From positions 1 through 34,025 of the IMG/VR virus record IMGVR_UViG_3300050821_009037: 34,025 bases of DNA. One strand, written 5' to 3'. Both the position numbers and the translations under genes were made by a program. The DNA is from a virus. Positions 3,571-16,482 of the stretch are shown here, piece after piece. How positions within the stretch are numbered: the stretch's first letter is position 1; the number at the start of each line of letters is the position of its first letter. The notes below the pieces were generated by a model that was not told where the DNA came from, ran no database searches, and was given only the letters and a program-made list of their open reading frames with translations.

Positions 3571-3822
3571 TCAGTCCTCCGGACTCTGTGTTTTAGGTGG
3601 GCGAAGTATACTCGCGCTTTCGAATGCTGGATCGTTGATAATGCGATTGAGCTCCGGATAGCACCTGGCTAGCTGACGAAGCGCACCAAGCGGCAAGCAC
3701 ACCATAACGGAATCGGAAGCTCCCTCAAATCTCTTCACAACATCATCGATCTCCAAGCCGTTAAGGGCGAGTTCAACATCGTTGATGGCGTTGCGCATCT
3801 GTTGGTGCTTAGACCGCCGCAT
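3571..3822 (-). CDS. Hypothetical helical protein (83 aa)
   Basis: Not recognised. Basic N-terminus (MRRSKHQQ), then helical segments with regular Leu/Val spacing and a Pro-rich tail. The ATG at 3822 sits in the motif GATTGACTGATG, shared with the next two upstream junctions, and lies four bases after the upstream stop, so it is probably read by reinitiation rather than from its own strong ribosome site. Confidence 0.6.
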   Translation of the reverse strand: MRRSKHQQMRNAINDVELALNGLEIDDVVKRFEGASDSVMVCLPLGALRQLARCYPELNRIINDPAFESASILRPPKTQSPED

Positions 3823-3825
3823 CAG

Positions 3826-4038
3826 TCAATCCCGTTCTGTTTTAGAGAGCGTCGAAGCTTTGATCATAGCTTCTAGCTGTTCGCCTTCGATTGGGTGCCA
3901 GTGGGGGCAACCGCGACCAAGCCACCCGGTTTTCAGACATCCCGGCCCCCAATAGCAAAGGTTGCGCGGCGTCTGAGGTCGATCGCAATGCCCATGGTGA
4001 TCGAGCAGATAGTCGATTAGTTCGTTGCGAGCCAGCAT
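3826..4038 (-). CDS. Cys/His-rich small protein (70 aa)
   Basis: Not recognised by name. Four cysteines (residues 18, 28, 34, 44) and nearby histidines (HHGHC, CPHWH) suggest a small metal-binding fold. The ATG at 4038 is in the GCGAGATTGACTGATG junction motif. Ends Lys-Thr-Glu-Arg-Asp and then the same motif again at 3822. Neighbouring genes also encode Cys-rich miniproteins. Confidence 0.55.
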   Translation of the reverse strand: MLARNELIDYLLDHHGHCDRPQTPRNLCYWGPGCLKTGWLGRGCPHWHPIEGEQLEAMIKASTLSKTERD

Positions 4039-4041
4039 CAG

Positions 4042-4290
4042 TCAATCTCGCTTCGCTTGAGGGAGTGTGCGAGCGCAACATGATGGGCACCGGCACATTT
4101 CGTTGTCGTCTGAATCCATGCGCATTCTCCAGCCCTTCTGAGACGCCTCAAATTCGCTGCGCCCCTCCGGCATCGGGACATCAGGAAACGTGTCTCTGCG
4201 CCCGCAGTCGTCGCACACGTAGCACCAAGCGGTAACGATAACCGACAGGTCGTTTATGGCAACGGCGCGCGCGATCTGATCAACCGGCAT
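4042..4290 (-). CDS. Zinc-ribbon-like small protein (82 aa)
   Basis: Two cysteine knuckles are visible: C-Y-V-C-D-D-C near residues 23-29 and C-R-C-P-S-C-C near residues 69-75, spaced by about 40 residues, as in a zinc ribbon. No enzymatic motif. The start at 4290 overlaps the stop of the HTH-A gene (TGATG), coupling it to the DpdA-like/HTH module upstream. Its role is unknown; nucleic-acid binding is plausible. Confidence 0.6.
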   Translation of the reverse strand: MPVDQIARAVAINDLSVIVTAWCYVCDDCGRRDTFPDVPMPEGRSEFEASQKGWRMRMDSDDNEMCRCPSCCARTLPQAKRD

Positions 4291-4481
4291 CAGTCAATCT
4301 CGCGTCGGAGTGAAAGCCACTGGCCTCGAAACTTGTGCCCGCGCTTGGCTCCTGCTTCCCTTATCCATCGTCCAAGTGTTGGACGTGGACGGTCGAACAC
4401 TTCTTCCAGATGCTTAAGAAGAGCGCCATCGGAGTAGAGGCGAACACATTCTTGGCGTTCCTTGGCTGTTCCGTGTCTCAT
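4290..4481 (-). CDS. Small HTH protein, copy A
   Basis: 63 aa from the ATG at 4481, which overlaps the stop of the DpdA-like gene A (ATGA). The sequence E-R-Q-E-C-V-R-L-Y-S-D-G-A...T-L-G-R-W-I-R-E-A-G has the form of a transposase/terminase-type helix-turn-helix, followed by a basic tail (AKRGHKFRGQW). It is a near copy of the protein at 5723-5920: about 53 of the first 58 residues agree, yet the DNA differs at many silent positions. Both copies directly follow a DpdA-like gene with the same overlap. It may guide or regulate the enzyme; this is inference from linkage only. Confidence 0.7.
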   Translation of the reverse strand: MRHGTAKERQECVRLYSDGALLKHLEEVFDRPRPTLGRWIREAGAKRGHKFRGQWLSLRREID

Positions 4482-5158
4482 GTCAATTCCATTTGCTCTG
4501 GCTGGGTTTCCCACGACGCCTTGCACTGGATGGCGTCCCAACGGTCAGCCATGCTACGTGGTGTGTTCTGAGGTCTGTTATGGTTCTGGGCTATGTCCGT
4601 GCTATCGACCGACGCAAAGGGCCAGCGAAGGCCGAGCGTTTGCATCCCGCGAAGCATATGGAGCCAAGGCATCCTAGAATGCCGCCTGGCAACTTCGTTG
4701 AAAATCTCATCCATGCGTCGTTTCCAAGAATCTGAAAGCACAACGGCATATTCTGCGGTCGATCCAATGCAGACTTTCGGCCATTTGTCGGTGAGCTGGA
4801 GAAGGCGGTTTAGAGGTTCGTCCATGTGCCAGACCGGAGCGCCGCGCTCCCCGTGTGGCCATTCTCGGATCATTGCGTCCTGCAACTGGGAACCTCCGTC
4901 GATCACGTCCGGGATAACTGCCCAGGTGGTCGGATAAGCCAGCCACTTATCGGCCCATGCATAAAAACCATTCCAATCGGTATCCTTCCCCGATTTCCAT
5001 TTGGAGAACGCGCCATTGTCCAACATGACTGACTGGCCGATCTGATGGCAGCGAGCCACGTCGTCAGGGCGAGCGAACGACACACAGAAATTCCGCCCCG
5101 CCAGATCATAGAGCGCAGTGATCGGAGTGATCGGCGTGCCGTGGTAATGCATGGTCAT
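4478..5158 (-). CDS. DpdA/TGT-like enzyme, copy A
   Basis: 226 aa. The pattern resembles the tRNA-guanine transglycosylase superfamily, nearest the phage DpdA branch, which swaps guanine for a 7-deazaguanine in DNA. Seen: V-M-L-D-N-G-A-F-S with Asp47 where TGT/DpdA has D-S-G-(G/A)-F; P-D-V-I-D-G (83-88); P-V-W-H-M (108-112); C-I-G-S (130-133); H-M-L-R-G-M (167-172); and F-A-S-V-D-S with Asp185 where DpdA has its second aspartate (S-A-D-S). It is shorter than typical DpdA (around 300-400 aa) and lacks the TGT zinc motif. GAAGGA abuts the ATG at 5158; the next in-frame ATG six bases on has better spacing and could be the true start. Family call is from motifs by eye. No preQ0 synthesis genes are in the window. 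Confidence 0.6.
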   Translation of the reverse strand: MTMHYHGTPITPITALYDLAGRNFCVSFARPDDVARCHQIGQSVMLDNGAFSKWKSGKDTDWNGFYAWADKWLAYPTTWAVIPDVIDGGSQLQDAMIREWPHGERGAPVWHMDEPLNRLLQLTDKWPKVCIGSTAEYAVVLSDSWKRRMDEIFNEVARRHSRMPWLHMLRGMQTLGLRWPFASVDSTDIAQNHNRPQNTPRSMADRWDAIQCKASWETQPEQMELT

Positions 5159-5168
5159 TCCTTCAGCA

Positions 5169-5393
5169 CTATCCACGCTCTGCCGGAGGGAGCGGGAGCG
5201 GCATCCAGTGGGTCGGGAAGCCGGGCTCCTGATAGTCAGTCCACGTGTCGCCTTGCGACTTTATCGCTGGCCCGTCGCATCCCATCGCAAGCCATCCCTT
5301 CTTGCCCTTGCGGGCCATGCAAACATCCCAAGAATCCCAGATCAGAACGTCTGTGTTCACCGGGGCCGTCTCGATCGGTTGCCAGTCAGTCAT
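5169..5393 (-). CDS. DUF551-type phage protein (74 aa)
   Basis: Matches the pattern of DUF551 phage proteins: N-terminal W-Q-P-I-E-T-A-P followed by a V-L-I-W-D block, a central Trp/Asp/Gly region and the C-terminal T-H-W-M-P-L-P-L-P-P. Length is usual for the family, whose function is unknown. The ATG at 5393 overlaps the end of the upstream gene by eight bases. It stands between the two copies of the DpdA-like module. Confidence 0.75.
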   Translation of the reverse strand: MTDWQPIETAPVNTDVLIWDSWDVCMARKGKKGWLAMGCDGPAIKSQGDTWTDYQEPGFPTHWMPLPLPPAERG

Positions 5394-5520
5394 GGTGCAC
5401 TGGTCCCACAGCAGCGATCAGCCTTGCGCGATGGCGTCTCTGCAATTTGGTGCTGTATCGCATGATCGAGAAGCGAAACTGAAAGTGCCGCCCGCGATCG
5501 TAGGAAAGCCAATATCTCAT
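5386..5520 (-). CDS. Basic microprotein (44 aa)
   Basis: Not recognised. The ATG at 5520 overlaps the upstream stop (CAATGAG) and its own stop overlaps the DUF551 start, so coupling at both ends supports it. The product is Arg/Tyr/His-rich (MRYWLSYDRGRHFQFRF at the N-terminus), with an Ala/Val segment near the end. A longer start at 5652 would run inside the upstream gene and is rejected. Confidence 0.5.
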   Translation of the reverse strand: MRYWLSYDRGRHFQFRFSIMRYSTKLQRRHRARLIAAVGPVHHD

Positions 5521-5726
5521 TGCTCGCTCTCCTGGGGCAAGTGATTGCGGTTCAATCGCTCCACGCTGGTCAAGCCGAGATTGAGCTTGACCATTTCCCA
5601 CAGCGTCAGCGCGTGAAAGCTCCCGTCGGTCACATAGAGGACCGGGCCGCACATGTTATCCCAGTCGATCTTCGGCTTGGGAATCGGGCACTTCTTGGTG
5701 CTTGCGGTGTATAGCGGGCTGCTCAT
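5517..5726 (-). CDS. Hypothetical phage protein (69 aa)
   Basis: Not recognised. Start ATG at 5726 overlaps the stop of HTH copy B (ATGA). Lys/Pro-rich N-terminus, then a W-D-N-M-C-G-P-V-L-Y-V-T-D-G block suggesting a small beta domain, and a C-terminal helix. Lies between the duplicated modules. Confidence 0.6.
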   Translation of the reverse strand: MSSPLYTASTKKCPIPKPKIDWDNMCGPVLYVTDGSFHALTLWEMVKLNLGLTSVERLNRNHLPQESEQ

Positions 5727-5920
5727 GGTTTTTGCTCCTGCGAAGGGAGCGAAAACCACTGACCACGAAACTTGTGGCCGCGCTTTGCTCCCGCTTCTCT
5801 GATCCATCGTCCAAGCGTCGGGCGCGGCCTACCGAACACTTCTTCCAGATGCTTGAGCAGAGCGCCTTCGGAATAGAGGCGAACGCATTCCTGACGCTCG
5901 ATGGTCGTTCCGTGCCTCAT
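5723..5920 (-). CDS. Small HTH protein, copy B
   Basis: 65 aa from the ATG at 5920, overlapping the stop of DpdA-like gene B (ATGA). Same helix-turn-helix and basic tail as copy A at 4290-4481, differing at only about five of the first 58 residues (for example Asp18 to Glu, Asp30 to Gly, Leu to Phe near the end) while the codons carry many silent changes. This points to selection on the protein after an old duplication or separate acquisition, not a recent copy. Linkage to a DpdA-like gene in both places suggests a joint function. Confidence 0.7.
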   Translation of the reverse strand: MRHGTTIERQECVRLYSEGALLKHLEEVFGRPRPTLGRWIREAGAKRGHKFRGQWFSLPSQEQKP

Positions 5921-6606
5921 GCGAAAATGTCCTGTTGTTTGAACACTTCGACCGGCCTCCATGGCGTCGTGCATTGGACCGAGTCTAGTCGCCGCGCCAT
6001 CCGCTCCGGGTCGGTATTGGTGTCCTTGAAATTACGAGCTACGTTTACCGAGTCGACGGAGGCGAACGGCCAGCGATCGCCGGAAAGGTTCATGCCGCGT
6101 AGCATGTGAATCCAGGGCAGGTGTTTGTGAGCCGCGGCGAGGGTATTGAAGGCTTCGTCCGCGCGCCGGCACCAGACGTCTGAGCCAATCTGCCAGTATT
6201 GAGCCGTCGAGCCAAAGCAGATGCGTGGCCATTCGTCAGCTAACTCAAGCAGGTAATCTATGGGCAACCCCATGTGCCAGACCGGAGCGGAGAGGGCGCC
6301 AGGAAAGGGCCATGCGACAAGCCCCTCACGTTGCTGATCCGGAGTGCCGTCGATCACGTCGGGCGGGATTGCCCAATGAGGGTGACGCAGCCGCGGTTCA
6401 AGAAACTTGATGTAGCCCGGCACATCCATCGGTTTGCCCTTGGTGAAGGCCGAGAACGCGCCATTGTCGAACATGACTGACTGACCGATCTGGAGACAGC
6501 GATCGGCATCCCTCGCATCGGAGAACGGCACGCAGAAGCATTTGCCGGCGAGATTAATCAACTCGCTAGTCGGCGAAAGCGGAGTGCCGTGGTAGTGAAG
6601 GGTCAC
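5917..6606 (-). CDS. DpdA/TGT-like enzyme, copy B
   Basis: 229 aa, start GTG at 6606 inside a GTGA overlap with the upstream gene. By eye about half the residues match copy A, and every putative functional block is kept at the same or nearly the same place: Asp47 in V-M-F-D-N-G-A-F-S, P-D-V-I-D-G (82-87), P-V-W-H-M (108-112), C-F-G-S (130-133), H-M-L-R-G-M (167-172) and Asp185 in F-A-S-V-D-S. As for copy A, the closest superfamily I can name is TGT/DpdA (base exchange in RNA or DNA), with the identity inferred from motifs. Conservation of both aspartates in both copies suggests that both are active and may have different substrates. Confidence 0.6.
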   Translation of the reverse strand: MTLHYHGTPLSPTSELINLAGKCFCVPFSDARDADRCLQIGQSVMFDNGAFSAFTKGKPMDVPGYIKFLEPRLRHPHWAIPPDVIDGTPDQQREGLVAWPFPGALSAPVWHMGLPIDYLLELADEWPRICFGSTAQYWQIGSDVWCRRADEAFNTLAAAHKHLPWIHMLRGMNLSGDRWPFASVDSVNVARNFKDTNTDPERMARRLDSVQCTTPWRPVEVFKQQDIFA

Positions 6607-12331: not shown

Positions 12332-12555
12332 CGACCGTGCTTCCCAACCCATTTGAATCCGTCGTCGACCCGCCGACGGACGAGCCGGCTGCTGCATCAA
12401 CGGATCGCCCCCCTCAAGATGCAGTGGCCGGCTCACCTCTGCGCGTCCGCTTGCCAGGTCTGCAGATCAGCCTCGCCGGGCATCAATTGGATGTCGTGAC
12501 GTTCATGGCCGAGCTCGGCGTGGTCGACGTGGAGTTCTTGCGGGGCGCCGCATGA
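12328..12555 (+). CDS. Small hypothetical protein (75 aa)
   Basis: ATG at 12328 overlaps the upstream stop, and the TGA overlaps the methyltransferase ATG. A Pro/Ala-rich, probably disordered N-terminal 38 residues precede a compact beta/alpha C-terminus (L-R-V-R-L-P-G-L-Q-I...D-V-V-T-F-M-A-E-L). Translationally coupled to the methyltransferase; function unknown. Confidence 0.6.
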   Translation: MTTVLPNPFESVVDPPTDEPAAASTDRPPQDAVAGSPLRVRLPGLQISLAGHQLDVVTFMAELGVVDVEFLRGAA

Positions 12556-13151
12556 CTTGGCCGTTCGGCGACCTCGAGCACGGCAGGTACGGGGCGATCC
12601 TCGCGGATCCGCCGTGGCATTTTGAAGCGTGGGCTTCGCCGCCATACGGCAAAGGCCGTGCTGCAGAGAGCCATTACGACACCATGAATGAAGCCGAGCT
12701 AAGCGCGCTTCCCGTGGCTGATCTGGCCGCGCCAGACTGTGTGCTTTTCATGTGGGCTTGTTGGCCGATGATTAAGCAGGCATTTCGGACCGTCGACGAT
12801 TGGGGCTTCAAATTCAAGACTTGCGCGTTCTGTTGGATCAAGGCCGACGCTACGCAAATCCAGATGTTTGACGAGGAAATCACGGCAGACATGCTCCTCG
12901 GATATTGGACGCGTTCCAACTCTGAAGTTTGCCTCCTCGCAACGCGAGGCAAGCCCAAAAGGATCGCTGCCGACGTTCGCCAAGCGATCATAGCCCCTAA
13001 ACGCGAGCACAGCCGCAAGCCGGACGGCATCCACGAGCGGATACAGCGCCTCGTCGCCGGGCCCTATTGCGAGATGTTTGCGCGCCAGAAGCGCCCAGGA
13101 TGGGACGTGTGGGGCAATCAGACCGACAAGTTCGCGGAGGCCGCGGAATGA
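12552..13151 (+). CDS. MT-A70 family adenine methyltransferase
   Basis: 199 aa. Transfers a methyl group from S-adenosylmethionine to the N6 of adenine, in phages normally in DNA. The catalytic D-P-P-W is at residues 19-22 after Y-G-A-I-L-A; further family features are A-E-S-H-Y-D-T-M, the L-F-M-W-A block, F-K-F-K-T-C-A-F-C-W-I-K, L-G-Y-W-T-R-S-N-S-E-V-C-L-L-A-T-R-G, and the C-terminal S-R-K-P-D-G-I-H-E-R-I and G-W-D-V-W-G-N. No cognate restriction gene is nearby, so it is probably a solitary, protective or regulatory methylase. ATGA overlap with the gene before; ends overlapping a microprotein ATG. Confidence 0.9.
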   Translation: MTWPFGDLEHGRYGAILADPPWHFEAWASPPYGKGRAAESHYDTMNEAELSALPVADLAAPDCVLFMWACWPMIKQAFRTVDDWGFKFKTCAFCWIKADATQIQMFDEEITADMLLGYWTRSNSEVCLLATRGKPKRIAADVRQAIIAPKREHSRKPDGIHERIQRLVAGPYCEMFARQKRPGWDVWGNQTDKFAEAAE

Positions 13152-16021: not shown

Positions 16022-16193
16022 AGCGGGGAGCCTTGGTGCTGTGCGGAATGCGGGCCCGGCCGATATGACCGCAGCGATCGCAGCGAACATTGCGGAATGA
16101 GGGCAGGTGCTTGACGCGAACGCCGTCAAGCCCGACCGCCTCATCGACCAGAATCTCGGCCTCCTGCCGCTGATACGCCTTCCTGCTCAGCAT
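15990..16193 (-). CDS. Zinc-ribbon small protein (67 aa)
   Basis: Two knuckles C-D-R-C-G-H and C-S-R-C-G-Y, 18 residues apart, form a canonical zinc ribbon at about residues 38-65, preceded by a helical, Glu/Val-rich N-terminus. Start ATG at 16193 is inside the 3' end of the upstream minus-strand gene (about 53-base overlap). Convergent with 15749-16021. Probably binds nucleic acid or protein; function unknown. Confidence 0.55.
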   Translation of the reverse strand: MLSRKAYQRQEAEILVDEAVGLDGVRVKHLPSFRNVRCDRCGHIGRARIPHSTKAPRFRCSRCGYRG

Positions 16194-16482
16194 GCTGTAG
16201 ATCCCATTGGCTCTTGGCCCGGCCCGCTATCCAGTGCAACAACTTCTTGCTCGGCCGCTTCCTGGGCGGCAACCCCGCTAGATAACGTTCCTCCCGCTCG
16301 TGCAGCTTTGCGATGTGCCGCAGCCGCATCTCCGCAAGGTCAATCTGCGCCTCCCGCAGCCAGCGGCACACCGTCTGCCGCGGCAGCGACCCGACCAGCA
16401 TGATTTCCTTCACTGTCGCAAAATCACCCCGCCTGATGCCACTCATGATGCGATTGCGAAGCGGATGACGAGGTGCGACCAT
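16141..16482 (-). CDS. HTH-containing protein (113 aa)
   Basis: V-K-E-I-M-L-V-G-S-L-P-R-Q-T-V-C-R-W-L-R-E-A-Q-I-D reads as a transposase/terminase-type helix-turn-helix at about residues 23-48, followed by a long basic region. A start at the ATG at 16446 is an alternative. It faces away from the plus-strand gene at 16670, leaving a 190-base divergent region with a palindrome and promoter-like sequence. Could be a regulator or a small-terminase-like protein; unproven. Confidence 0.6.
   Translation of the reverse strand: MVAPRHPLRNRIMSGIRRGDFATVKEIMLVGSLPRQTVCRWLREAQIDLAEMRLRHIAKLHEREERYLAGLPPRKRPSKKLLHWIAGRAKSQWDLQHAEQEGVSAAGGRDSGR

Follow-up and report, generated by a model that had tools for sequence, protein, structure and literature searches.

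The window analysed here is the whole stretch of a phage record (34,025 bases), and this record may be incomplete, at 34 kb as compared with 41-43 kb in the longer relatives. It contains two enzyme-HTH gene pairs, both encoded on the minus strand, for which the annotated coordinates are correct. The genes of these pairs and those located between them are the following:

4290..4481, minus strand: HTH A, a predicted helix-turn-helix protein of 63 aa (differs from HTH B at 5 of the first 58 residues)
4478..5158, minus strand: enzyme A, a DpdA-type transglycosylase of 226 aa (phrog_887, E 9.2e-50; 50% identical to enzyme B; sister of the protein from locus L049)
5169..5393, minus strand: a DUF551 protein between the two pairs (PF04448, E 1.5e-6)
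5517..5729, minus strand: a protein of 70 aa, an open reading frame with a start that overlaps the stop of HTH B
5723..5920, minus strand: HTH B, a helix-turn-helix protein of 65 aa predicted from sequence (Pfam HTH_28, E 0.0012, below cut-off; three-helix model with pLDDT 66)
5917..6606, minus strand: enzyme B, a DpdA-type transglycosylase of 229 aa with a GTG start (phrog_887, E 4.8e-35; profile link to the DpdA of phage 9g; AlphaFold model with pLDDT 87)

In each pair, the stop codon of the enzyme gene overlaps the start codon of the HTH gene in an ATGA (positions 4478-4481 for pair A and 5917-5920 for pair B). An earlier note on this DNA had described two such pairs with the same overlap and an HTH protein of 63-65 aa, and both the coordinates and the overlaps are confirmed. 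The DUF551 protein is probably incidental to the pairs. The 70 aa protein has no family match in Pfam or PHROG. The stop-start junction CGAGATTGACTGATGC occurs repeatedly, at 3819-3834, 4035-4050 and 4287-4302, one of the copies having one mismatch. These are three adjoining minus-strand gene boundaries of the window, and the junction may act as a linker through which genes are shuffled.

Both enzymes match PHROG 887 (queuine tRNA-ribosyltransferase), with E 9.2e-50 for enzyme A and 4.8e-35 for enzyme B. The same PHROG is matched by the DpdA of Pantoea phage MED16 and by the experimentally tested DpdA of Enterobacteria phage 9g (PMC6884629). The family profile (131 relatives) retrieves 9g DpdA with E 6e-10 from about 49,000 ORFs, and hhalign of the family against 9g DpdA gives 94.7%. 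The signature histidine of DpdA, which is absent from DpdA2, is the conserved His196 in 9g (PMC6884629). It is aligned with His167 of enzyme B, a position that is 99% conserved in the family. In the profile alignment, Asp47, His111, Gly132 and Asp185 of enzyme B also match 9g DpdA. Asp47 and Asp185, which are invariant in the family and common to 9g DpdA, are putatively the two catalytic-type aspartates at the ends of barrel strands, as judged from the alignment and the model. The motifs of the window enzymes, Asp47 (in DNGAF), PDVIDG, PVWHM, HMLRGM and Asp185, are found where the earlier note had placed them.

AlphaFold models enzyme B (pLDDT 87) as a barrel of eight strands, and the conserved residues lie at strand ends. 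Upon structural comparison, the top rows are Cap10 (9ntn, Z 14.3), arcTGT (13.9) and bacterial TGT (about 13). The model is thus a TIM barrel of the TGT type (Z 13-14 to arcTGT and TGT), but Z 13.1 is obtained as well with 1ho1, a TIM barrel that is unrelated, and the fold by itself is therefore no proof. A Foldseek search with the model returns phage queuine tRNA-ribosyltransferases with E of about 1e-8, and the result against the PDB alone is weak. For neither enzyme was a family found in Pfam (E up to 1) or NCBIfam, and there was no match to PF01702. A sequence search of solved structures with the enzymes returned nothing, and a profile search against four related canonical TGTs gave no match, the profile being shallow. 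The TGT link, therefore, rests on the fold and on the published HHpred result for MED16. Bacterial TGT has a CXCXXC...H zinc site; the CXCXXC motif is absent from both enzymes upon sequence inspection. The DpdA/TGT identification proposed in the earlier note is well supported by PHROG 887, the profile match, the conserved residues and the TGT-like model of enzyme B. Structure prediction and profile search, which had been suggested as checks, yielded the barrel for enzyme B and the match to 9g DpdA. The enzymes are of a known kind and are new members of a known family.

MED16 DpdA is homologous over its full length (31% identical to enzyme B), and the motifs DNGAF, PD-I, WH, H-LR and DS are common to it and the window enzymes. 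MED16 belongs to the singleton DpdA group and has no preQ0 genes; its dpdA is the only pathway gene, and dADG amounts to about 0.13% of G in its DNA (PMC8306585). Likewise, the window has no convincing match to the preQ0-pathway proteins tried. MED16 differs in having a single DpdA copy of 261 aa, the C-terminus of which is longer; an HTH gene overlapping it is not annotated. The 9g DpdA (317 aa) is, unlike the window enzymes, encoded together with FolE, QueD, Gat-QueC and QueE. This protein alone inserts preQ0 into E. coli plasmid DNA, and 9g dpdA failed to complement E. coli deleted for tgt (PMC6884629). The same subfamily includes dpdA-VUT pairs from alphaproteobacteria and phages (for example, Rhizobium phage RHph_N3_2 and Pseudanabaena phage Pam5), with 47-50% identity to enzyme B. 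There, a queuosine-precursor-type transporter (VUT/DUF165) is encoded directly or one gene downstream, whereas the window has an HTH gene at this place.

The VUT-family transporter is found within about 3 kb of dpdA in 89 of 123 related loci (some of them redundant). It is often directly downstream with a short overlap, and was confirmed as PF02592 in one example. YhhQ, a member of the VUT family, carries preQ0 (cited in PMC6884629). Other relatives have, instead of the transporter, a gene for QueD (PTPS) or for a QueE-like radical-SAM protein next to dpdA. In a Rhizobiales genome (L049, 2998-4613), queE and queD come after a dpdA that has a frame shift close to its start. These neighbourhoods are strong circumstantial support for 7-deazaguanine as the substrate. 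When capsid-related phages were searched with the same queries, the transporter was found only in G037, where a divergent DpdA-like gene directly precedes it. The DpdA-like protein of G037 has about 210 aa (L242, 8918-9772, minus strand).

The window, which may be part of an incomplete record, has no convincing match to the transporter or to the preQ0-pathway (Que) proteins tried, so that the base would come from the host. In lacking linked 7-deazaguanine genes, it resembles the published singleton DpdA phages; the linkage is present in relatives. Among related genomes tested, 6 of 6 have QueC and 5 of 6 have TGT. The use of host preQ0, as anticipated in the earlier note, is well supported. 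The very common pairing of dpdA with a transporter in relatives suggests that lone-DpdA phages obtain the base by salvage.

The locus had been read as one duplicated two-gene module. The two alike pairs are real, and the enzymes do share about half of their residues (50% identity over 217 residues, E 1e-78). Each is, however, closer to another protein than to its counterpart. The tree (103 proteins) places enzyme A beside the L049 protein and enzyme B beside L003 from a Bradyrhizobium embrapense prophage (support 100/96 in both cases), and a 100/98 branch divides the two groups. Since they belong to two distinct clades, both with strong support, the one enzyme did not arise by local copying of the other, and they are of separate ancestry. 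Each of 35 other records searched has one DpdA copy (two end pieces in one of them, G827, were read as one gene), and a search of the phage collection gave one DpdA place per record. To judge from names in a viral structure library, two such proteins may be present in Microbacterium phage Megan as well. Two DpdA in one phage, each coupled to a small partner gene, is an unusual, new arrangement.

The two HTH genes are much more alike in protein than in DNA. In their first 58 codons, 31 are identical, 22 are silently different and 5 have amino-acid changes, which agrees with the five or so differing residues and many silent differences reported before. The DNA match extends over 176 nt (83%, E 6e-50), and chance likeness is excluded. 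A three-helix HTH protein is weakly supported: the Pfam HTH_28 match (E 0.0012) is below its cut-off, and the model has three helices with pLDDT 66. The fold search with it gave no significant PDB match and is uninformative. A 113 aa protein encoded elsewhere in the window (16141-16482, minus strand) has a weak likeness to the HTH pair (E 0.077).

Fourfold sites are identical at 15 of 29 positions for the HTH pair, 24 of 55 for enzymes A and B, 31 of 75 for enzyme A and L049, and 34 of 82 for enzyme B and L003. With these small numbers, the value for the HTH pair is statistically no different from the enzyme comparisons. The HTH silent sites are about as diverged as those between an enzyme and its nearest relative; thus, both HTH copies appear to be old and under strong purifying selection. 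That the HTH pair is much younger than the enzymes is unsupported: every comparison shows strong divergence at silent sites, with no significant difference between them.

The earlier note had also proposed the HTH protein as an associated partner of the enzyme. The coupling by ATGA, seen twice, stands, but the HTH gene was found beside no other DpdA locus examined. The search for homologues covered phages, plasmids, viral and genome contigs, 392 Bradyrhizobium-family genomes and 397 genomes of the order; the contig scans used short peptide patterns, by which relatives can be missed. One clear homologue was found in the whole search (L243, 1450-1725, minus strand; 67% identity over 51 residues). 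It is solitary, beside chromosomal genes of a Bradyrhizobium-family genome in which no DpdA was detected. Of the weak order-level matches, those inspected were for the most part to sigma-factor region 4 or confined to short stretches. The module count in related phages that had been suggested gave 0 of 39 capsid-related contigs, which is little informative because these contigs differ entirely in their early regions and are in part incomplete. In the nearest relatives of enzyme B, the slot after dpdA is occupied not by an HTH gene but by one for a 69 aa AP2-like protein. It is found in L003 (4681-4890) and also in L005 and L025, and it matches the later part of HNH endonuclease PHROG 99.

We consider it probable (at roughly 0.75) that both enzymes are stand-alone phage DpdA-type DNA transglycosylases, which insert host-made preQ0 or a derivative into DNA, the HTH protein being a rare accessory. 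This explanation builds on observed homology, fold, conserved residues, gene order and separate ancestry. Both enzymes are assigned to a compact, MED16-like DpdA subfamily. The TIM-barrel enzyme would cut the glycosidic bond of guanine in DNA via the two conserved aspartates (47 and 185 in enzyme B), and the excised guanine would be replaced by a 7-deazaguanine, either host-made preQ0 or a derivative. DNA rather than RNA is the favoured substrate, by homology to the DpdA of 9g and MED16. The modification status of the singleton DpdA group is hard to predict (PMC6884629); here, the modification would likely be sparse, at limited sites, as in MED16. The modified phage DNA might be shielded from some host restriction, but no effect of MED16 dADG was seen with the restriction enzymes that were tried (PMC8306585), so that the protective role is a putative one. 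We infer that the two enzymes diverged long before they met in the phage genome, perhaps with different target sites. Each is apparently coupled in translation to the small HTH protein, presumably a lineage-specific accessory; the simplest role for it would be regulation, and help with DNA targeting is possible. Two diverged DpdA in one genome, each with a near-identical predicted DNA-binding protein, offer a clean genetic test of target choice. This touches the wider questions of how phage DpdA selects its sites and why many phages have a lone dpdA without the pathway.

For the HTH protein, it is slightly more likely than not that its gene encodes a small transcription regulator of the ordinary kind or is a phage gene that drifts, placed after both dpdA genes by recombination at short gene junctions. 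Such a regulator or passenger is a simpler reading than a targeting role. It agrees with the early region, which is almost wholly different among capsid-related phages, with the junction sequence repeated at three neighbouring gene boundaries, and with the existence of a solitary homologue. Still, that coincidence should have put it there two times, in both cases with an identical overlap and with the protein strongly conserved, is not the simplest of chance events. The coupling in both pairs and the 53 of 58 residues kept despite strongly diverged silent sites would also fit a DNA-targeting subunit that recruits the compact DpdA to a short sequence to which it binds. This would be a two-part, sequence-directed base-exchange system, present twice. 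The AP2-like protein fills the same slot in the relatives of enzyme B, which leaves such a role some plausibility. We regard it as unlikely, as the HTH gene is beside no other DpdA locus examined, its one homologue stands without a detected DpdA, 9g DpdA is active in E. coli without an HTH protein (PMC6884629), and the early regions of phages commonly contain small DNA-binding genes. It is tempting to speculate that two enzymes with nearly the same HTH reader perform sequence-directed exchange, with two chemistries or two steps at the same sites; this is more doubtful still.

Action on tRNA, by which true TGT function would alter translation for the phage, is suggested by the TGT-like fold and by the family annotation as queuine tRNA-ribosyltransferase. 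It is improbable, given that PF01702 and the zinc motif are missing from both enzymes, that the closest homologues with experimental data have a link to DNA modification, and that 9g dpdA did not replace tgt (PMC6884629). Duplication of the whole enzyme-HTH unit in place, with quick divergence of the enzymes thereafter, would account for the same order and overlap in both pairs and for HTH proteins that are about 90% identical over 58 residues. For the enzymes this is rejected by the tree, where both have closer, strongly supported relatives in other genomes, and the reading as a whole is very improbable. Least probable of all is binding or modification of a protein with 7-deazaguanine, as by Cap9/Cap10 of type IV CBASS: Cap10 has a TGT-family fold like the enzyme B model and is its top structural row, but its Z is tied with those of TGTs, it acts on protein together with Cap9 (QueC-like) and a CD-NTase (PMC11996544), no PADLOC or Gat-QueC match was found in the window, and the DpdA signature residues are kept.

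The enzymes favoured here as DNA transglycosylases may not be the only DNA-modifying enzymes of this phage. An MT-A70 family adenine methyltransferase, another possible one, is encoded at 12552-13151 on the plus strand of the window.
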